Below, piece after piece: positions 3,663 through 58,353 of a stretch of 58,402 nt of DNA. Under the pieces are notes generated by a model that was not told where the DNA came from, ran no database searches, and saw only the letters and a list, made by a program, of their open reading frames with translations. The stretch is from Planosporangium mesophilum (lineage in GTDB: Bacteria; Actinomycetota; Actinomycetes; Mycobacteriales; Micromonosporaceae), in NCBI RefSeq assembly GCF_016863255.1, contig NZ_BOON01000060.1, forward strand, positions 1-58,402, given 5' to 3'. The translations under genes and the position numbers were made by a program. Numbering within the stretch: the stretch's first letter is position 1; the number at the start of each line of letters is the position of its first letter.

Positions 3663-4472
3663 ATGGACGAGGTGTTCAAGGCGTTGGCCGATACCAGCCG
3701 ACGCCGGCTGCTCGACAGTCTGAACGCCCGCAACGGGCAGAGCCTCCGCGAACTCTGCGCCGGCCTGGACATGGCGCGGCAGTCGGTCAGCAAGCACCTG
3801 GCGGTCCTGGAGGCGGCCAATCTGGTGACCACCGTGTGGCGCGGCCGGGAGAAGTTGCACTACCTCAACGCCGAGCCGATCAACGCCATCGCCGAGCGCT
3901 GGATCAACCGGTACGACCGCGAGCGGGTCAGCGCGCTCGCCGACCTGAAGAGAGCACTGGAGGAGAAGCCGATGGGCAACCACGAGTTCGTGTACACGAC
4001 GTACATCAACACCACGCCGGAGCGGCTCTGGCAGGCGTTGACCGATCCCGCCTTCACCCGCCGGTACTGGGGGCTCGCCTTCGATACGGACTGGCGCGCG
4101 GGATCGCCGATGGCCTGGGAGATGGGCGGAATGAACCTGGCCGATCCCGAACAGGTCGTCGTCGAGTCCGAGCCCCACCGTCGGCTGGCCTACACCTGGC
4201 ACAGCCTCACCCCCGAGTGGGCCGAGGCTTCCGGCGTGGGCGACGAGGTCTTCGCCAAGATTGCCGGCGAGCGCCGGTCGAAGGTGACCTTCGAGCTCGA
4301 GCCGGTCGGGCCGCTGGTGAAGCTGACCGTCGTGCACGGCGACTTCGACGCCGACAGCACCGTGCGGGAGATGGTCGGCCAGGGGTGGCCGGCGATCCTG
4401 TCCAACCTCAAGACGCTGCTGGAGACCGGCGCGACCCTGCCCCAGCCGGAGCCCGCCGGCCAGGGCGGCTGA
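3663..4472 (+). CDS. ArsR HTH regulator fused to AHSA1/SRPBCC domain
   Basis: 269 residues combining two domains. Residues 1-95 are an ArsR-type winged helix (EVFKALADTSRRRLLD at the start, QSVSKHLAVLEAANLV as recognition helix). Residues about 103-260 are an AHSA1/SRPBCC ligand-binding domain (TPERLWQALTDP, then a GxPMAWE-like strand and VREMVGQGWPAILSNLK near the end). The two domains occur as adjacent genes in many bacteria; here a short linker joins them in one polypeptide. Family knowledge suggests a ligand-responsive repressor. The start is ATG 3663 with GAGGTG upstream. The promoter overlaps a perfect operator, supporting autoregulation. No metal-binding Cys pair of classic ArsR is seen. 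Confidence 0.88.
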   Translation: MDEVFKALADTSRRRLLDSLNARNGQSLRELCAGLDMARQSVSKHLAVLEAANLVTTVWRGREKLHYLNAEPINAIAERWINRYDRERVSALADLKRALEEKPMGNHEFVYTTYINTTPERLWQALTDPAFTRRYWGLAFDTDWRAGSPMAWEMGGMNLADPEQVVVESEPHRRLAYTWHSLTPEWAEASGVGDEVFAKIAGERRSKVTFELEPVGPLVKLTVVHGDFDADSTVREMVGQGWPAILSNLKTLLETGATLPQPEPAGQGG

Positions 4473-4519
4473 GGTCACCCGGCCACGCAGCCCGTGGGCG
4501 AGAACGGCTGACCCTGCCG

Positions 4520-5023
4520 TCAGCCGTTCTCGGCGGCCAGCAGCATCCGGCGCAGGAGGTCGGCAAGCTGCTGCTGCTCCCGGCGGGTCAGGACGCCCAT
4601 GAGGCGTTGCTCCTCGGTACCCTCCTCGCTCATCGCGGCGAGCCATGCCTGCCGGCCGGCGTCGGTCAGCTCGACCACGACCTTGCGCCGGTCGGTGGGC
4701 GACGGGGTGCGGCGGACGAAGCCGCGCTGTTCCAGCGCGTCGAGGCGGCCGGTCATGGCGGCAGGCGAGGTCCGGGTCTCCTCGGCCAGTTCGGTGGGTC
4801 CGGCGCGGTACGGGTCACCGCGGCCGGCGAGCGCGTGCAACGTCTCGAACTCGAAGTTCTGCAGCCCGTGTTCGGCCAGCAACGTCTGACGGACGCGCTT
4901 GAGGTGCTTCACCAGGAAGGACATCCGGGTGACCGCACCCTCGACGCACGGGTCGAGGGCGGGCAGCACCGCGCTCCACCGTTCGATGTGCCGGTCCACG
5001 GAATCCCGCGCGCCATTCTCCAC
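4520..5023 (-). CDS. MarR family transcriptional regulator
   Basis: About 167 residues from GTG 5023; longer in-frame starts would run through the shared promoter region and are unlikely. The middle contains a MarR winged helix: FETLHALAGRG, PTELAEETRTSPAAMTGRLDALEQRGFVRR as helix-turn-helix, then SPTDRRKVVVELT as the wing. The C-terminus is a dimerisation helix rich in Gln/Leu (REQQQLADLLRRML). It lies divergently next to an MFS transporter, with a perfect dyad between them, the usual layout for a MarR repressor of an efflux gene. The inducer is unknown. Confidence 0.88.
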   Translation of the reverse strand: MENGARDSVDRHIERWSAVLPALDPCVEGAVTRMSFLVKHLKRVRQTLLAEHGLQNFEFETLHALAGRGDPYRAGPTELAEETRTSPAAMTGRLDALEQRGFVRRTPSPTDRRKVVVELTDAGRQAWLAAMSEEGTEEQRLMGVLTRREQQQLADLLRRMLLAAENG

Positions 5024-5063
5024 GCGGACAGCGTACCTTCCGTACTTGATATTCCTTTGACGA

Positions 5064-5083
5064 ATATTTCGATACCGAAATAT
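5064..5083. promoter_or_regulatory. Putative MarR operator between divergent genes
   Basis: ATATTTCG (5064-5071) and CGAAATAT (5076-5083) are a perfect 8-bp inverted repeat with a 4-base spacer, in an AT-rich island that stands out from the GC-rich surroundings. It ends 10 bases before the transporter ATG at 5093. Binding of the divergent MarR protein here would control both genes. Confidence 0.65.
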
Positions 5084-5092
5084 CATCGCCGG

Positions 5093-6307
5093 ATGGGTGC
5101 CAACTTCCGGCTCATCTGGCTCGGCCACACGCTGTCTGCGCTCGGTGACTACGTCGTACCCGCCGCGCTGACCCTGGCGATCGTGCGGGCCACCGGCTCC
5201 GCGAGCGCGCTCGCGCTCGTACTGGCCTGCGCCACCGTGCCGCGACTGGTACTGCTGCCGCTGGGCGGCGCGGTCGCGGATCGCTGGCAGCCGCGGCGGG
5301 TAGCGATCGCGGCCGACGTCGTGCGCTGCGTGGCGCAGGCGACGGTCGCGATCGAACTGATCGACGGCCGGTTCCGCCTGACCGACCTCGCCGTGGCCGC
5401 GGCGGTCAGCGGAGCGGCCTCGGCCTTCGCGCTGCCCACCGGCTCCCCGATGATCGCCGCGGCGGTCGACGCCCCGACCCGTCCACGGGCCAACGCCCTG
5501 CTCGGCGTGTCCAACAGCGTGGCCCGCGTACTCGGTCCGGCGCTGGGTGGCGGCCTCGTCCTCACCGCCGGGCCGGGGTGGGCGTTCGCGGCGGACGCCG
5601 CGACGTTCGCCGTCAGCACCGTGGTTCTCGCGCTGGTGCGACTTCCCGCCGCGACGCCTTCGGTTCAGCGCCGCCCGCTACACCGCGATCTCGTCGAGGG
5701 CTGGAGCGAGGTGCGTCGCCACGACTGGTTCTGGATCAGCCTCATCGGTCATGCCACCTGGAACATGGCCATGGCCGTCCTGCAGACTCTGGGCCCGCTG
5801 ATCGCGGTCCGCCACCTCGGCGGCGAGATCGTCTGGGTGGCCTTCCTCCAGGCCGGGGCCGTCGGCCTGCTCGCCGGCTCGCTGCTGGCCACCCGGCTGG
5901 GCGCGGGCGGACGACTCGGGATCCGGGTGAGCCGGCCGGTGCTGGCGGCCAACCTCAGCCTGTCGCTGTTCGCCGTCCCGCTGGCGCTGCTCGCGCTGTC
6001 CGTACCCGCACCGGTGGCGATCGCGGCGTACGGGATCGCCCTGGCCGGGCTGGGCTTCCTCGTCCCGGTGTGGCACACCGCGGTCCAGCAGCAGGTACCG
6101 ACCGACAAGCTCGCCCGGGTCACCGCGTACGACATCCTCGTCTCGCTCGCGGCGATGCCGCTCGGCTATGCCGTCGCGGCGCCCGCCGCCACGGCCTTCG
6201 GGAACGCGGTACCGCTGCTGACCGCGGCCGCGCTGGTGGCCGTGACCACCGCCGGCACCGCGTTGACGCCCGGTGTCCGCGGGCTCCGCACCGCCACCGC
6301 GGTCTAG
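5093..6307 (+). CDS. MFS transporter
   Basis: 404 residues, about 12 membrane helices. It starts MGANFRLIWLGHTLSALGD, typical of drug-efflux MFS proteins of the MFS_3/EntS type, and has the loop 2-3 signature GGAVADRWQPRR. ATG 5093 is chosen because it lies just after the dyad operator; no convincing Shine-Dalgarno precedes it, so the transcript may be leaderless or nearly so. It is probably repressed by the divergent MarR regulator and exports an unknown hydrophobic compound. Upstream sequence is open in this frame but is antisense to marR and not coding. Confidence 0.88.
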   Translation: MGANFRLIWLGHTLSALGDYVVPAALTLAIVRATGSASALALVLACATVPRLVLLPLGGAVADRWQPRRVAIAADVVRCVAQATVAIELIDGRFRLTDLAVAAAVSGAASAFALPTGSPMIAAAVDAPTRPRANALLGVSNSVARVLGPALGGGLVLTAGPGWAFAADAATFAVSTVVLALVRLPAATPSVQRRPLHRDLVEGWSEVRRHDWFWISLIGHATWNMAMAVLQTLGPLIAVRHLGGEIVWVAFLQAGAVGLLAGSLLATRLGAGGRLGIRVSRPVLAANLSLSLFAVPLALLALSVPAPVAIAAYGIALAGLGFLVPVWHTAVQQQVPTDKLARVTAYDILVSLAAMPLGYAVAAPAATAFGNAVPLLTAAALVAVTTAGTALTPGVRGLRTATAV

Positions 6308-6315
6308 GGAACGTC

Positions 6316-6353
6316 ATACCGGCGGCGGTGGGAGGCCACCGCCTCGCCGGTAT
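6316..6353 (+). terminator. Hairpin terminator after MFS gene
   Basis: Starting nine bases after the stop, ATACCGGCG/CGCCGGTAT (6316-6324 with 6345-6353) plus the inner GCGGTGG/CCACCGC form a long stem with a small bulge and GAGG loop. There is no T tract, as is usual for actinobacterial terminators. Confidence 0.7.
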
Positions 6354-6486
6354 GCGTACGCCGCGCCGACGGCCGGTTCCGCTGGCTGCCTTCCGTTTTC
6401 CCCTAATGAGCGGCCCGTCGCCGCCGATGGCCGGGGTGGAGTCCGAGTCGTGGATTCCGCTGTCATAGGGGAGGTGAGTTCCAGTA

Positions 6487-8265
6487 ATGGGACTTGGATT
6501 GACATCGGCGAGGGTGGGGAAGGCCCCGCCGCGACTGCGACGGACCGTGCTGGCCGCTACGGCCGCCGCGGCGATCGCGGTCACCGCGGCGCCCGCGTCC
6601 GCCGGAACGAGCCCGAGCGGGGCCGCGCCCGGCTGGCAGGACGTCGTCGTGACCGGTTCGAGCGCCGACGGCGCCGCCCAGGCCGTGTCGGCGGTGGGCG
6701 GTCGCATCCTGGCGTCCCTGCCCCTGGTGCACGGCGTTGCGGCGCAGTTGCCGCGAGGCGCCGCGCTTGACCCGCAGTGGCTGGTGGCGCCGCAGCGTGA
6801 GCTGCGGGTCGCGGCCGCGACCGTACCGGCCGGCGCCGGCTCCTCTTCCACCGTCCGCAAGACGCTGGGCCTGCCTGAGAACGGCGACGAAGGCCGTGGC
6901 ATCACCGTCGCCGTGGTCGACACGGGCGTCGCCGACGTGCCGGATCTGGCGGGGAAGGTGTCGGACCGGGTCGACGTGACCGGTACCGGCCGTGGTGACG
7001 GGTTCGGTCACGGCACCTTCATGGCCGGTCTGATCGCCGGGTCCGGCGCCGCCTCGGGTGGCGCCTACCAGGGCGTGGCGCCGGGGGCGAAGCTGGTCGA
7101 CGTCAAGGTCGCCGACGCGCAGGGCCGCACCGACCTCATCACCGTGCTGCGTGGCCTGCAGTGGGTCAGCGAGCACGCGCGTGACGTACAGGTGCTCAAC
7201 CTGTCGCTGTCGTCGGGCAGCCCGTTGCCGTACCAGATCGACCCGCTGACCCAGGCGCTGGAGTCGCTGTGGCACCGGGGCGTGACGGTCGTCGTGCCGT
7301 CGGGCAACGACGGGCCGGGAGCGGGCACGGTGACGTCGCCGGGTAACGACCCGGTGCTGCTCACCGCGGGTGGCCTCGACGAGTCGGGTACCGCCGGCCG
7401 AGGTGACGACACGGTCGGCACGTGGTCGGGTCGGGGACCGACGTGGCAGGGAGACGCCAAGCCGGACCTTGTCGCCCCGGGCGGTCACGTCGTCAGCCTG
7501 CGGTCGCCGGGAAGCGTCGTGGACACGTCGAATCCGCAGGCGCGGATCGGCAGTGACTACTTTCGCGGTTCGGGTACCTCGATGGCCACCGCGGTGACCG
7601 CGGGCATCGTCGCCGACGCGCTCGCGGTGGCGCCGAAGCTCCGGCCGGACTCGGTGAAGAGCCTGTTCACCGGTACCGCCTACACCGCTGCGGGCCTCAC
7701 CCGGGCGGCCGGTGCCGGAGCGGGCGGCCTCGACGCGGCACGCGTCCTCGCGGCTGCGCCGGATTGGCGTAGCAAGCCGTCCCAGTCGCAGTCCGACAAG
7801 GACAACCAGGTCGTCGGCCGGGACGCCAAGCGCTGGGCGGCGTTCGAGAAGGCCGTCCTGGACGGCGACGGCGTCGCCGCCGAGGCCGCGTGGAAGGCGC
7901 TGAGCCCCGCCTCCCGGGACTGGGCGGCCCGTGCCTGGGCGCAGCTGGACCCGGCGGCTCGGGCCTGGGCGGCGCGGGCGTGGGCGGCTCGGGCCTGGGC
8001 CGGCGCCGGCGACGAGTGGGCGGCGCGGGCGTGGGCTGCTCGGGCGTGGGCGGCGCGTGCGTGGGCGTCCGACGACTGGGCCGCTCGGGCCTGGGCGTCC
8101 GACGACTGGGCCGCTCGGGCGTGGGCTGCCCGTGCCTGGGCCGATGTCGACTGGGCCGCTCGTGCCTGGGCGTCTGAGGACTGGGCCGCTCGGGCCTGGG
8201 CTGCTCGTGCCTGGGCGTCTGACATCTGGGGGGCCCGAGCGTGGGCCTGGCTGCCTGAGGCGTGA
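6487..8265 (+). CDS. Secreted subtilisin (S8) protease with W-A-A-R-A repeat tail
   Basis: 592 residues. A long Arg-containing signal peptide ends near residue 39 (APASAG). Residues 40-125 resemble a propeptide region. The S8 catalytic domain (about 135-420) has all key residues: Asp145 in VAVVDTGV, His175 in GFGHGTFMAG, oxyanion Asn274 in PSGNDGP and Ser365 in GSGTSMAT. After a charged linker (420-477), residues 478-592 are a low-complexity tail in which Trp recurs every five residues, with units WAARA alternating with acidic units such as WASDD. The stop overlaps the start of a histidine kinase gene (GTGA), so the two are translationally coupled. Function of the tail is unknown; it could be a cell-wall or membrane-binding stack or a signal read by the kinase. 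Confidence 0.9.
   Translation: MGLGLTSARVGKAPPRLRRTVLAATAAAAIAVTAAPASAGTSPSGAAPGWQDVVVTGSSADGAAQAVSAVGGRILASLPLVHGVAAQLPRGAALDPQWLVAPQRELRVAAATVPAGAGSSSTVRKTLGLPENGDEGRGITVAVVDTGVADVPDLAGKVSDRVDVTGTGRGDGFGHGTFMAGLIAGSGAASGGAYQGVAPGAKLVDVKVADAQGRTDLITVLRGLQWVSEHARDVQVLNLSLSSGSPLPYQIDPLTQALESLWHRGVTVVVPSGNDGPGAGTVTSPGNDPVLLTAGGLDESGTAGRGDDTVGTWSGRGPTWQGDAKPDLVAPGGHVVSLRSPGSVVDTSNPQARIGSDYFRGSGTSMATAVTAGIVADALAVAPKLRPDSVKSLFTGTAYTAAGLTRAAGAGAGGLDAARVLAAAPDWRSKPSQSQSDKDNQVVGRDAKRWAAFEKAVLDGDGVAAEAAWKALSPASRDWAARAWAQLDPAARAWAARAWAARAWAGAGDEWAARAWAARAWAARAWASDDWAARAWASDDWAARAWAARAWADVDWAARAWASEDWAARAWAARAWASDIWGARAWAWLPEA
7918..8262 (+). repeat. Coding tandem repeat, period 15 nt (five residues)
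   Basis: The 3' end of the protease gene consists of imperfect 15-nt units encoding W-A-A-R-A or W-A-S-(D/E)-D. I count 22 Trp residues in residues 478-592. Spacing is five (or ten at one place), broken once by a seven-residue step in AGAGDEW and by the closing AW. Synonymous variation among units (cgt/cgg, gcc/gct/gcg) shows selection on protein rather than recent DNA slippage. Confidence 0.9.
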
Positions 8266-10556
8266 GCAGCGACGTGTCGAGTGCCGGCCGCCCGGGTGTC
8301 ACCCGGGCGGCCGGCGCCCTGCGCGCCCGGTTCCGGGATCCGATCCTGCGCCGGGTCGTGGCCGTCGGCCTGCTCGGCGCCGCTCTCACCACCGCCGTGG
8401 TCGTCCTGCTGCGCGACCACGGCAGCGTCCTGCACGGCGTCGGGCCGTCCGGCGCCTGGCTGCTGCCGGGCCTGGCCGTGCTGACCTGCCTGGCCGAGCT
8501 GGCGACCGTCCGGCTGCGCCACGGCGACGCCGTCGAGGAGCTCACCCTCTACGAGGCGGCCGTCATCATCGACGTCCTGCTGCTGCCGCCCCAGCAGGCC
8601 ATGGCCGCGGCCGGGCTCGGCCTCGTCGCCGCGAGCGTCCTCCAGCGGAGGCCGCCGGTGAAGACCGCGTTCAACCTCGGCATGTACCTGGCGGCCGTGT
8701 CGCCGCTGATCGGAGTCGTCCACCTCGTCGGCGGCACTCCAGGTGCCCTCACGATCGGCGTACTCGTCGGCGTACTGCTGGGTACCGTCGTCTTCACCGC
8801 CGTCAACCTGTGCTGCCTGGCCCAGATCATCGGCGTCGTCAACAGCACGTCGCCCTGGAGTGTCATCCGTTCAGAGGCGCGACTCTCCGCGTACATGGCG
8901 GTCGGTACCGTCGCCACCGGGCTCACCACCGCCGCGATCGGCCTGCACGCGCCGCTGCTGCTGCCGTTCATGGCGATGCCCGCGCTCGCCATCACCTACG
9001 CCTACCGGGCGGCGGCCCAGGAGGCCGACGAGCGGGCCCGGTCGGTGTACCTGCTCCAGCTCTCGAACGCCCTCGCCGAGCGGGACGACGTGGTACGGCG
9101 ATTCCTCCGCCTCGCCCGTGAGGCCTTCGACGCCGACCTCGCCGTGGTCGTGCTGGACGGCGCCGACCTGGCCCTGTCGGTGGACGCGGTGGCGTCCGGC
9201 GAGCTGTCCGTCGACCCGGTCCCCGATTATCTGGCCGACCTCCGCGGTACCGATCGCCCGATGCTCGCCGGCGAAGATCTGCCGCAGGATCTGCGGCGGA
9301 TGCTGGTCGTACCGTTGGAGAGCGGCGGCCGCCGGTTCGGGATCATGGTTCTGGCCATCCGCGGGCGCCGCCACGGGCGGCTGTCAACCCGCGACCTCAC
9401 GGTGCTGACGCCACTGGCCAATGCCCTGGCCGCGGCCATGCGCGGCGCCGAGCACCTCGACCGGCTCGTCGAGGAGACCAGCAAGCTGCAGGCGATCGTG
9501 GAGCAGTCCACCGAGGGCATCCTCATCGTCGACGGCGATGGCCTGGTACAGATGTGGAGCCGCGCGATCGCCGAGCTCGCCGGCGTGCCGGCCGTGGACG
9601 CGGCCGGCCGTCGGCTCGCCGACCTCCTCGACGTACCCGATCCGGAGCAACGTCGGCTCCTACTGCCTGTGACGGCCGACCAGCCCACGTCGGCGGTCGA
9701 ACTCACCATCCGGCGACCCGACGGGGAGCCGCGCCGGCTGCGGCTCGCCCACTCGGCCCTCTTCGCCGGCGGGAGTCTCGTCCGCGACGTCGTCGTCGTC
9801 CACGACCTGACCCGCGAGCATCGCACCGAGCGGCTCAAGGCCGACTTCATCGCCACGGTCTCCCACGAACTGCGCACACCGCTGACCCCGATCATCGGCT
9901 ACCTCGGCCTCCTGCGTACGCGCGGCGACCGGATGCCGGCCCAGAAGCGCCAGGACTGCCTGGACCTCATCGCCGACCGGGCGGCGCACATGTCGCGGCT
10001 CGTCGAGGACCTGCTGCTCGCCTCCCGGATCGGTGACGCCGACGACGACCTGGGCCTGCATGTGTCCGTCGGAACGCACGACCTCACCGCGATTGTCCGC
10101 CAGGTCGCCGACGACCTCGACACGAGCCGAATCAAGATCGACGTTCCCGGCCACCCCGTACCCGTCGTCTGCGACGAGGGTCGGACGCTCCAGGTCCTGA
10201 CCAACCTCATCGGCAACGCGCTCAAGTACTCGCCGTCCACCGAGGACGTACGGGTACGCCTGCGCGTCGACGCCGACCGCGTGCACGTCGACGTGTCCGA
10301 CCACGGCCGTGGCATTCCGGCCGACCAGTTGGAGAAGGTGTTCGAGAAGTTCCACCGGGTCGAAGACCCGATGACGATGAGCACCAGCGGTACCGGGCTG
10401 GGTCTGTTCATCGCACGCCGGCTGGCGCAGGCCATGGGCGGCGACATCGCCGTCACGTCGACGCTGAACGTCGGTTCCGTCTTCACGCTCACCCTGCGGC
10501 ACGCCGGCCGACCCGTGTCCGGCGCGGACCGGACGCCGGTGGCAGCGCCGGGATAG
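8262..10556 (+). CDS. Membrane sensor histidine kinase (GAF/PAS-like, HisKA, HATPase)
   Basis: 764 residues. The N-terminal 250 residues carry about seven hydrophobic segments forming a membrane sensor unit. There follow a GAF-like region (about 270-390), a PAS-like region (about 405-520, with GILIVDGDG), then HisKA with phospho-acceptor His535 in TVSHELRTPLTP, and an HATPase domain with N-box NLIGNALKYS (near 651), G1 DHGRGIP (near 680) and G2 GTGLGLF (near 711). All catalytic motifs are intact. The GTG start overlaps the protease stop by four bases, and a response regulator gene follows 95 bases later, making a protease-kinase-regulator unit. The signal is unknown. Confidence 0.92.
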   Translation: MSSDVSSAGRPGVTRAAGALRARFRDPILRRVVAVGLLGAALTTAVVVLLRDHGSVLHGVGPSGAWLLPGLAVLTCLAELATVRLRHGDAVEELTLYEAAVIIDVLLLPPQQAMAAAGLGLVAASVLQRRPPVKTAFNLGMYLAAVSPLIGVVHLVGGTPGALTIGVLVGVLLGTVVFTAVNLCCLAQIIGVVNSTSPWSVIRSEARLSAYMAVGTVATGLTTAAIGLHAPLLLPFMAMPALAITYAYRAAAQEADERARSVYLLQLSNALAERDDVVRRFLRLAREAFDADLAVVVLDGADLALSVDAVASGELSVDPVPDYLADLRGTDRPMLAGEDLPQDLRRMLVVPLESGGRRFGIMVLAIRGRRHGRLSTRDLTVLTPLANALAAAMRGAEHLDRLVEETSKLQAIVEQSTEGILIVDGDGLVQMWSRAIAELAGVPAVDAAGRRLADLLDVPDPEQRRLLLPVTADQPTSAVELTIRRPDGEPRRLRLAHSALFAGGSLVRDVVVVHDLTREHRTERLKADFIATVSHELRTPLTPIIGYLGLLRTRGDRMPAQKRQDCLDLIADRAAHMSRLVEDLLLASRIGDADDDLGLHVSVGTHDLTAIVRQVADDLDTSRIKIDVPGHPVPVVCDEGRTLQVLTNLIGNALKYSPSTEDVRVRLRVDADRVHVDVSDHGRGIPADQLEKVFEKFHRVEDPMTMSTSGTGLGLFIARRLAQAMGGDIAVTSTLNVGSVFTLTLRHAGRPVSGADRTPVAAPG

Positions 10557-10651
10557 GTGTCCCAAGACACTAAGGACCGCTGTGCCCTGTCCGATGAAAT
10601 GGGCAATCCGCAGTGCATGAGGCGCGCGGCTCAGCGAGACAGGAAGCGTCC

Positions 10652-11788
10652 ATGGCGGACAGGCCCCGAATTCTGTGTCTGGACGACGAGGCGTACGTCC
10701 TGGACGGACTGCGGCGGTACCTGCGCGTCAACTACGACGTCGTGACCACGACGCAGCCGCAGGAGGCTCTCGACCTGCTCGGTGCCGACGAAGACGGCTC
10801 GGTCGCGGTGGTCGTGTCGGACATGCGGATGCCGCAGATGAACGGCGTCGCGGTCCTGGAGCAGGCCCGGCGTATCTCACCCGACACCACGCGGGTGCTG
10901 CTGACCGGAGACGCCGACCTCCATAGCGCCGTCGCGGCGATCAACCAGGGCAACGTCTTCCGGTTCATGCTCAAGCCGTGCCCACCCGACGACCTCAAGG
11001 CCACCGTCGCCGCAGCCACCGAGCAGCACCGGCTCGTACGCGCCGAGCGGGAACTGCTCGAGGCGACGCTCAAGGGCTGCGTGGACGCGCTCATGGACAC
11101 CCTGGGAATGGCGCAGCCCGCGCTGTTCAGCCGGGCCGGACGGCTGCACCGCCTGGTCGAGCGGCTCTGCGCCAAGCTGGGCGTTGCCGACGCGTGGCAG
11201 ATCGAGATGGCCGCCCAGATGGGCGAGATCGGGGCCATCACGCTCCCGCCCACCGCGATCCCGGTACTGGAGGGCGGGACACCCAAGAGCGACGCCGAGG
11301 CCGAGATGCTGGCGAGGCTGCCTCATCTCGCCGACAGTGTGCTGGCGCGGATCCCACGGCTGGAGGCGGTACGCGAGATCGTGCGTCATCAGCTGCCGAC
11401 CGACCGCAACCCCATGACGCCGCTGCCCGAGGACGCCCCGGAGGGCGCTCGGCTCTTACAGGCGGTACGCGAGTACGACGCGCTCGTGTGGCGCGGCATG
11501 CCGCCGGACCTCGCGGTGGCCACCCTGTCGTCGCGGAAGATCCACGACCGGGAGACGCTGCGCGTCATAGCCGAGGTGGGTGGCCTGCGCCTGCCCAATG
11601 AAGCGGTACGTGAGGTCACGATCGACGACCTGACCATCGGCCACGAACTGGCCGGCGACGTGTACAGCGCCAAGGGGATGCTGCTGGTGGCACGGGGCCA
11701 GGTCATCACCGAGCGACTGCTGATCCGGCTGCGCAACTACGAGATGACCACCGGTCTGCAGGGCCGCATCCTCGTCGTCGACCTGTAA
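10652..11788 (+). CDS. Response regulator with degenerate HD-type output domain
   Basis: 378 residues from ATG 10652 (AGGAAG upstream). The receiver domain (1-120) has the acidic pair at residues 11-12, phospho-acceptor Asp57 in SDMRMPQMNG, a Thr in LLTGDAD and Lys in MLKPCPP. After a helical linker, residues 145-290 follow the pattern of the HD-GYP fold seen in RpfG-type regulators, but the HD metal motif is replaced (AAQMGEIGAITLP where family members have an HD-x-GK segment) and no GYP motif is present. Thus it probably does not hydrolyse c-di-GMP and may act by protein contact. It is the likely partner of the kinase encoded upstream. Confidence 0.85.
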   Translation: MADRPRILCLDDEAYVLDGLRRYLRVNYDVVTTTQPQEALDLLGADEDGSVAVVVSDMRMPQMNGVAVLEQARRISPDTTRVLLTGDADLHSAVAAINQGNVFRFMLKPCPPDDLKATVAAATEQHRLVRAERELLEATLKGCVDALMDTLGMAQPALFSRAGRLHRLVERLCAKLGVADAWQIEMAAQMGEIGAITLPPTAIPVLEGGTPKSDAEAEMLARLPHLADSVLARIPRLEAVREIVRHQLPTDRNPMTPLPEDAPEGARLLQAVREYDALVWRGMPPDLAVATLSSRKIHDRETLRVIAEVGGLRLPNEAVREVTIDDLTIGHELAGDVYSAKGMLLVARGQVITERLLIRLRNYEMTTGLQGRILVVDL

Positions 11789-14440: not shown

Positions 14441-14782
14441 CTACCGGGCGGCGTCCTCGGGTGCGGCGTCGACGAGTTCGGCGTCGGCGAGTTCGGCGAT
14501 GACCTCCGCGTGGCACGGCTCGGGTACGCACCAGCAGCCCAGTCGCCGGCCGCGCAGGTCCGGGAGCAGGGCCAGCAGGTCGGGCCGGTCGAGCAGCCAC
14601 CCGCGGTACGCCTCGAGCACCTGCTCCCGGGTGCCGTCGCGGCCGGGGCGGAACGGGCTGGCCAGCGGCGAGCCGTCCAGGTTCCAGCCGCCGCGGCGCA
14701 TGGTCCGCCCCACGTACACCACGTCGGCGTAGTCGGGATCGCCGAGGTGACCCTTCAGGTTCACGACAGTCGTCCGGTTCAT
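14441..14782 (-). CDS. DUF4326 domain protein
   Basis: 113 residues beginning MNRTTVVNLKGH. The family signature is clear: VVYVGR near the start, a SPLASPFRPGRDG segment, YRGWLLDRPDL, and the C-terminal Cys-rich motif GCWCVPEPCHAEVIAEL, which looks like a metal or nucleotide site. The molecular function of DUF4326 is not established; members are often in phages and actinobacteria. It overlaps no neighbour and is convergent with the methyltransferase. Confidence 0.85.
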   Translation of the reverse strand: MNRTTVVNLKGHLGDPDYADVVYVGRTMRRGGWNLDGSPLASPFRPGRDGTREQVLEAYRGWLLDRPDLLALLPDLRGRRLGCWCVPEPCHAEVIAELADAELVDAAPEDAAR

Positions 14783-57918: not shown

Positions 57919-58353
57919 GTGATCAGATGGCACCCCGTGCTGGCCGGGTTGACGCTCGTCGTGGGTACCGGACTCTCGGCCGGCGTCGTCCTGTGGCCCG
58001 CTCCCCGGATCGCGCCCGCGCCGGTACCGCTGGCCGCGAACCGGGGACCCGTCGTGCCGGTACCGGTATCGACGCATGGCCCCTGGCCCGGCCCGTCGGC
58101 CTCGTGGGCCGACGAGAGCAGAGCAGAAGAGAGCAGAGCCGAAGAGAGCAGAGCCGAAGGGAGCCGGGCCGATGCGGCGTGGCGGGCGCGGGAGGCCGCG
58201 TTGACCGCGGAGCTGCGCCGGTTGGACGGGAGCGGGAACGTCGACCTGGCGTTGACCGTTGTGGACCGGAACGCCGGCCGGATCTTCAGTTACCGGGATC
58301 GTCCGCGGTGCTCTGGCCTTCAGGCCGGGGGTGAAGCGGACCCTCCCGCGTAG
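57919..58353 (+). pseudogene. Interrupted secreted serine-hydrolase-like gene (5' part)
   Basis: From GTG 57919 the frame gives a signal anchor (VLAGLTLVVGTGLSAGVVLW), a Pro-rich linker, a tandem repeat of the five residues E-S-R-A-E (15-nt units, 58114-58173), and then GNVDLALTVVDRNAGRIFSY, which fits the first strand of the class A beta-lactamase-like/serine hydrolase fold. After FSYR the homology stops abruptly: the expected strand leading to the S-x-x-K motif is replaced by RDRPRCSGLQAGG and a stop at 58351. The gene is probably cut by inserted sequence, or the rest was lost. Confidence 0.5.

Follow-up and report, generated by a model that had tools for sequence, protein, structure and literature searches.

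A tryptophan-tailed subtilase and its neighbouring membrane receptor in Planosporangium mesophilum and related actinobacteria

Introduction

On the 58,402-nucleotide stretch of Planosporangium mesophilum DNA that was analysed here (contig NZ_BOON01000060.1, hereafter the window), the gene of a subtilisin-like protease of peptidase family S8, which carries a tail of tryptophan (Trp) pentads, is directly followed by the genes of a membrane histidine kinase and a response regulator, and the locus raises the question of what a protease with an export signal has to do with a membrane receptor. The constant neighbour of such proteases is a membrane domain that we term TM7, our own label for the domain common to the kinase and to GGDEF(-EAL) receptors. 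We consider it the best reading, with a probability of roughly 0.55, that the pair would be a protease-coupled membrane receptor in which the protease serves as the extracytoplasmic input subunit of TM7.

Conservation of the protease-receptor pair

Protease and kinase N-terminus were searched separately in 200 genomes of the family, the Micromonosporaceae. The kinase part occurs in 25 of them (E up to 1e-10; in G025 only distantly), and in all 21 scored loci with a tailed protease, the window included, the kinase gene lies directly 3' of the protease gene; the contig-end pieces of protease and kinase in G003 (L109-L112) as well as L107 and L108 are excluded from this number. In the order, 23 of 298 genomes have the kinase part, and 20 of the 27 places were fetched in addition to the window and G011, G297:C337 and four weak matches being left out. 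All 18 scorable loci among these 20 have a Trp-tailed S8 gene directly 5' of the kinase gene, while L166 and L168 retain nothing but the tail, at a contig edge. Orthologues are found in Dactylosporangium, Actinoplanes, Amorphoplanes, Couchioplanes, Jidongwangia and Micromonospora pattaloongensis, and within the genus there is a match in Planosporangium flavigriseum (NZ_JAATVW010000035, 20,458 bases). Such a conservation of the protease-kinase order in relatives is far beyond chance. The initial annotation had proposed that tailed protease and kinase belong together, and had regarded close homologues of the protease lying mostly apart from any kinase as the finding that would speak against it; family and order hold the conserved pair and not the scattered homologues.

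Divergent Trp-tailed S8 genes from Kineosporiaceae, Frankiaceae, metagenome-assembled genomes of Chloroflexi and the family itself led to neighbours other than kinases. Those of L160, L117, L115 and L126 are membrane-GGDEF-EAL proteins, with a GAF domain above the Pfam cut-off in L160 and L126 and a weaker one in L117 and L115; in L159 the membrane domain is joined by GGDEF in a second, overlapping frame (TM7 and GGDEF in two successive frames are seen on one Chloroflexi contig), and L161 encodes a membrane-domain protein without a recognised output. In profile comparisons, the TM7 of the window kinase matched that of five GGDEF types with a probability of 98.4 (E 7.9e-15, 206 columns) and that of L161 with 97.6 per cent, and all six control segments of four other membrane proteins stayed below 1 per cent. 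The common core reads L-x-E ... R....K..FN. In seven scanned TM7 proteins, the window kinase among them, the domain was hit by no Pfam model, and a Foldseek search with the whole kinase returned kinase cores and phytochromes and nothing usable for TM7.

In the phylum, a protease-profile query (A1), which includes the tails and thus selects tailed S8 genes and not TM7, gave 71 matches in 48 of 296 genomes. Fetched were 51 regions with 56 of these matches (51 genes with at least four pentad steps and five with fewer) and, as controls, nine regions with 10 hand-picked long S8 genes; the 15 matches unscored in this set are the window, L113 and 13 others that were not fetched, many of them at contig ends. 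When adjacency is defined as a distance within 3.5 kb, the first protease of a tandem pair being counted across the second, a TM7 protein is adjacent to 46 of the 51 S8 genes with at least four steps: downstream on the same strand in 43 cases, upstream in two and divergent in one. The 43 downstream proteins comprise 21 with GGDEF-EAL, 19 kinases and three without an output recognised in that frame. As to the five S8 genes without TM7, L206 has a divergent GGDEF protein, L187 and L225 lie at a contig edge, and L193 and L212 have nothing. Among the 15 S8 genes with fewer than four steps (five from the query, 10 controls), only two have TM7, both of them query matches, one being the first of a tandem pair (three steps) and the other divergent on a short contig, and none of the 10 controls has it.

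A TM7-profile query on a phylum sample of the same size, drawn in the same way, gave 98 matches in 59 genomes. By coordinates and with a limit of 2.5 kb, 50 of these 98 are close to an A1 match, and 53 of the 71 A1 matches are close to a TM7 match. Twenty of the 48 unlinked TM7 matches were fetched, 18 of which have no Trp-tailed neighbour; the other two are L266, with an S8 gene ending in a WDILSW tail, and L260, with a truncated WRAVQW tail upstream. Since TM7 is often alone (18 of the 20 unlinked loci fetched) and the tailed S8 rarely is, the protease is more closely tied to the receptor than the receptor to the protease, and judged from the sequences it looks like an accessory of the receptor.

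Some loci deviate in gene number: L188, L199, L202 and L229 have tandem Trp-tailed proteases beside one receptor, and L211 has two successive protease-receptor pairs. In four of the nine control loci (L241, L243, L244, L245), a GGDEF-EAL gene is found upstream, on the same strand, of a tail-less S8 gene of about 1,120-1,140 residues.

Exchange of outputs and direction of the signal

All sets together contain 84 immediate same-strand protease-TM7 pairs, in which the receptor is a kinase in 57, an EAL protein in 22 and something else in five. The expectation that the kinase always stands beside the tailed protease holds for the 21 family loci and the 18 scorable order loci given above, and it fails across all sets, in which TM7 carries GGDEF-EAL in these 22 pairs. 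The output label shifts at least six times on the protease tree and at least five times on the TM7 tree, and as it changes on both, the pair of protease and membrane domain outlives the exchange of the output. In a paralogue swap test inside genomes, which removes species descent, the true partners fitted better in 10 of 11 comparisons.

With protease and TM7 constant, the output changing and TM7 found by itself as well, the most economical view is that the protease provides TM7 with an input from outside. The protease would be exported and then matured by its propeptide, the tail would keep it at the outer face of the membrane, and there it would act as the outer input for TM7, which in the structural model has almost no outer loops; either the protease by its cutting would free a peptide that is sensed by TM7, or the complex of protease and tail would itself gate TM7. 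The receivers of the TM7 state would be GAF-PAS and the kinase at this locus and cyclic di-GMP enzymes elsewhere, and in the window genome the signal would reach the neighbouring REC-HD protein, which probably works by protein contact because its HD site is degenerate. It had been suggested at first that the kinase senses the protease, its product or its tail, or else that the regulator controls the protease, and of these the second has lost ground, as protease and TM7 persist without kinase and regulator. More tentative, and in our view a little short of even odds, is the wider claim that tailed subtilases as outer inputs of a domain of seven to eight helices could constitute an outside-in cassette shared by kinases and cyclic di-GMP enzymes in Actinomycetota and on one Chloroflexi contig.

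A special case of a protease feeding TM7, and not its opposite, is that the peptide sensed by TM7 would be diffusible and cut by the protease from a precursor whose gene lies elsewhere, the tail only retaining the enzyme at the cell; in this narrow form the idea is improbable. It resembles NisP/NisRK, of which TM7, an exchangeable output and a pentad tail are not known to be part. In that system, the leader of nisin is cleaved by the subtilisin-like protease NisP, and nisin outside the cell is sensed by NisRK (PMC4234265); a subtilisin-like protease and a two-component system thus serve one signal, which shows that a kinase can receive its signal from a subtilase.

Whether the outputs are intact bears on the direction. 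Strict motif patterns were scored on the TM7 proteins with a histidine kinase or EAL domain in the scanned loci: among 62 kinases the H-box and G2 are present in all and G1 in 60, and among 26 receptors GGDEF or GGEEF is present in 21 (the other five have AGDEF, SGDEF or GGDEY), DDFG of EAL in 26 and all seven EAL patterns in 13. By their sequences, most of the receptor outputs thus look like active enzymes. The degenerate GGDEF and EAL of a LapD-type receptor are, by these counts, not the rule among the GGDEF-EAL receptors of relatives, and the comparison is inapplicable to the window kinase.

The signal could also run inside-out, the phosphorylation or cyclic di-GMP state of the receptor making TM7 hold or release the tailed protease. 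This is a known design, as LapD, in which GGDEF-EAL is degenerate and HAMP and periplasmic output domains are present, controls the periplasmic protease LapG (PMC3032553), so that the reverse direction exists in nature; the likeness consists in a membrane GGDEF-EAL protein paired with a protease outside the cytoplasm, and that the protease leans on TM7 would fit as well. Unlike in LapD, the outputs here mostly look intact by the motif counts given above, kinases make up 57 of the 84 partners, and the TM7 model has no large outer domain with which a protease might be held, although the membrane domain itself might bind one; unlike LapG, the protease belongs to S8 and bears a Trp-pentad tail. 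An inside-out signal is unlikely, yet it is the strongest competitor of the protease as an input.

Somewhat less probable again is ordinary regulation, in which the genes share an operon only since the two-component system switches the protease on, with no link at the membrane. Autoregulated operons are common, and 38 of the 84 same-strand pairs may overlap by four bases (stop/start). The partner, however, is often a GGDEF-EAL protein and no transcription regulator, the constant part is TM7 and not the regulator, the receptor lies upstream or divergent in three of the 46 phylum cases with TM7, and the window regulator has no Pfam DNA-binding domain.

Several observations weigh against the protease as the input of TM7. 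In L107 (7946-8437, G065), the catalytic domain of the protease is gone and the tail shortened, with kinase and regulator intact. No receptor stands beside the Trp-tailed protease in L193 and L212 of the phylum and in L116 and L124 of the family, all with their flanks present, and by the stricter coordinate count, contig ends included, 18 of the 71 S8 matches have no TM7 match within 2.5 kb. Eight of the 13 divergent tailed S8 loci of the family have as neighbour a GGDEF protein that lacks TM7 and is read in the divergent direction. The distances in protease and TM7 trees correlate (r 0.87, 0 of 2000 shuffles), a value confounded by species descent, and the swap test comprises 11 comparisons from seven genomes, near ties accounting for two wins and the sole loss. 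The N-box pattern is found in 47 of the 62 kinases, to which the two without the G1 pattern and the 13 of 26 receptors with fewer than seven EAL patterns are to be added. Linked (84) and unlinked (18) TM7 domains do not differ by any signature residue. Finally, membrane anchoring by the tail is a guess, and the tail is unfolded in the AlphaFold model at low confidence (predicted local distance difference test, pLDDT, about 25).

The loci with a divergent GGDEF protein form a second class: L113 (G000:C14, in the window genome; genes 4459-6075 and 6186-9569), L114, L118-L122 and L125. The two partners scanned by Pfam, in L113 and L118, are GGDEF-ATPase-TPR proteins, and the tails are of types such as WAGTYW and WSGLTW; L116 and L124 have neither TM7 nor a divergent GGDEF protein. 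In view of this class, the tail may be linked to cyclic-dinucleotide signalling beyond the TM7 receptors.

The tryptophan-pentad tail

The WAARA repeat tail, which had appeared strange in the first description, is a real tandem array: a 15-base unit is present in 19.8 copies according to Tandem Repeats Finder, and 24 Trp residues lie between residues 450 and 588, with a spacing of exactly five from 511 to 586. In 106 tailed proteins, 1,539 pentads were counted, 4 to 29 in each (median 14.5). Position 2 is Ser, Ala or Thr in 75 per cent and position 3 Gly, Ala or Ser in 84 per cent, positions 4 and 5 are variable, and the net charge of the tail ranges from -22 to +10. The unit varies by group (WAARA, WAGRA, WAARN, WAARQ, WTARN, WGASM), the Trp spacing being unchanged. 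Fixed Trp steps at a charge that is free to vary suggest a structural role or a contact with membrane or wall rather than a charged ligand. Proteins of the pentapeptide-repeat beta-helix type likewise have a period of five and form a four-sided solenoid from A(D/N)LXX pentads; the composition here is Trp-small-small-x-x, and the window protease had no Pfam repeat match. In its own genome, the DNA pattern of the tail has five exact matches, all of them in the window array, and with up to three mismatches the total is not above the control. Further tandem repeats with a 15-base period are present in the window at 14448-14498 and 58108-58172.

The tail might itself be substrate or signal, pentad pieces being cut by the protease and sensed, or serving as a modified peptide. 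The variation of array length (4 to 29 steps) and unit at constant Trp spacing would be in line with this, as would the fact that pentads resemble each other more inside one protein (0.50) than across proteins (0.20). For the 21 orthologues of the family, however, the values are 0.55 within and 0.50 between, and in 97 of 210 pairs the between value falls short of both within values; since the two values differ so little, the contrast is mostly due to distant groups, and a signalling tail is the least probable of all the alternatives, with hardly any weight in our estimate.

Protease and kinase of the window

The features of the locus are collected in Table 1. The protease belongs to Peptidase_S8 with an Asp-His-Ser triad (PF00082, E 2.4e-40), its N-terminus is signal-like, and its propeptide-like domain is presumably I9-like. 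In the AlphaFold model (20 sequences), the S8 domain is modelled well except for residues 274-287 and 316-322. All 105 aligned tailed proteases have the active-site His, Asn and Ser, and all 103 scorable ones have the Asp. The closest PDB sequences to the catalytic part (residues 46-426 compared) are the subtilases 3afg (E 3.2e-43) and 9ues (E 1.5e-42), a likeness limited to these residues, with tail and pairing outside the comparison. The best NCBIfam match is the type VII secretion mycosin family (MycP, TIGR03921), with 124.6 bits in the window, 147.4 in L160 and 152.4 in L113. Mycosins carry a C-terminal hydrophobic membrane helix, and a mycosin identity was rejected, as the window score is far under the cut-off of 278.75 and no hydrophobic segment lies close to the C-terminus of the protease.

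Table 1. Coordinates of the features at the protease-kinase locus of the window
Feature	Positions	Strand	Basis or remark
S8 protease, open reading frame (ORF), 592 residues	6487-8265	+	signal, propeptide, catalytic domain, helical linker, Trp-pentad tail
Propeptide-like domain, residues 50-107	6634-6807	+	pLDDT block means 75-92 over residues 51-110
Peptidase_S8 domain, residues 136-411	6892-7719	+	Pfam; catalytic Asp145, His175, Asn274, Ser365
Helical linker joining protease to tail, residues 417-487	7735-7947	+	AlphaFold, medium confidence
Trp-pentad tail, residues 479-588, units WAARA / WASDD	7921-8250	+	Trp step exactly 5 from residue 511
Four-base stop/start overlap GTGA	8262-8265	+	possible translational coupling
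Membrane histidine kinase TM7-GAF-PAS-HisKA-HATPase, 764 residues, GTG start	8262-10556	+	ORF, Pfam, AlphaFold
TM7 membrane domain, residues 27-272	8340-9077	+	common to GGDEF(-EAL) receptors; without Pfam match
GAF domain, residues 274-393	9081-9440	+	Pfam
PAS domain, residues 408-514	9483-9803	+	Pfam
HisKA and HATPase_c, residues 526-747	9837-10502	+	Pfam
Response regulator REC-HD_5, degenerate HD site, optional member	10613-11788	+	ATG at 10652

The overlap of protease and kinase genes that had been claimed is confirmed by the ORF coordinates, the protease TGA (8263-8265) sharing bases with the kinase GTG (8262-8264). A promoter scan found no sigma-70 site, and a terminator scan found one terminator-like stem (6370-6388) against 0.5 expected.

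The kinase had been described as a seven-helix sensor; that it is a polytopic membrane sensor stands, and the number of helices is seven or eight in the AlphaFold model (16 sequences, predicted template modelling score 0.41), with helices at residues 27-49, 64-80, 110-128, 132-157, 165-193, 198-229 and 231-272, a hairpin at 82-95 and a short helix at 97-107. The loops of the model are short and there is no outer domain; from the charge we infer that the N-terminus is inside and that outer loops reach at most about 14 residues. With HisKA/HATPase in the kinase and REC in its partner (Pfam), the two are an orthodox two-component system.

Regulator and neighbouring genes

The regulator follows the kinase in the same direction, 95 bases past its stop as originally given, if the ATG at 10652 is taken as the start; an in-frame GTG at 10613 is the alternative. 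Pfam finds Response_reg and HD_5 (PF13487 match) in it and no DNA-binding domain. The HD site had been called degenerate, and rightly so: where HDIGK is the expected motif, the dyad region reads GEIGA by eye, the metal-binding HD residues are absent, and an HD-GYP phosphodiesterase was rejected on this ground.

A three-part unit with the regulator always adjoining, as initially proposed, could not be upheld as a general rule. A REC-HD regulator lies 3' of the kinase in 11 of 22 family loci (similarity matches plus the window itself), in four of which it is only 37-40% identical, and in one of 20 order loci (L162), where several contigs stop soon past the kinase. An automatic count of 12/22 was set aside, as it includes stand-alone REC proteins (L103, L105) and misses L095, where long stop-free frames shift the gene edges. 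In L112 (4693-10751, G003) three successive REC-HD regulators lie close to one kinase.

Upstream of the protease, most family relatives have a kinase gene and two genes with REC, one coding for a REC-HDOD protein and the other for REC on its own (e.g. L088, 2592-6100); two REC genes are present in 19 of the 22 family loci. In the window genome this place is occupied by a transporter-like ORF, and a search of the genome with the REC-HDOD protein of L087 matched only the REC domain of the window itself.

Significance

In the literature found, judged partly from the beginnings of abstracts, there was no account of a Trp-tailed subtilase beside a receptor and no Trp-pentad repeat of this kind, which means not found and not that nothing has been published. 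Membrane-embedded sensor domains such as MASE1 likewise precede GGDEF/EAL, many without a known stimulus (PMC8846402), and TM7 differs from them in that it had no Pfam match in seven proteins. No input is known for many membrane sensors of bacteria that expose little outer surface, and a protease that stays with the membrane domain through swaps of the output singles out TM7 as its partner. If the protease is indeed the input of TM7, this would be a first function for the Trp-pentad repeat, which matched no Pfam family in the window protein, and the pairing points to an undescribed protease-plus-receptor signalling module in many actinobacteria.

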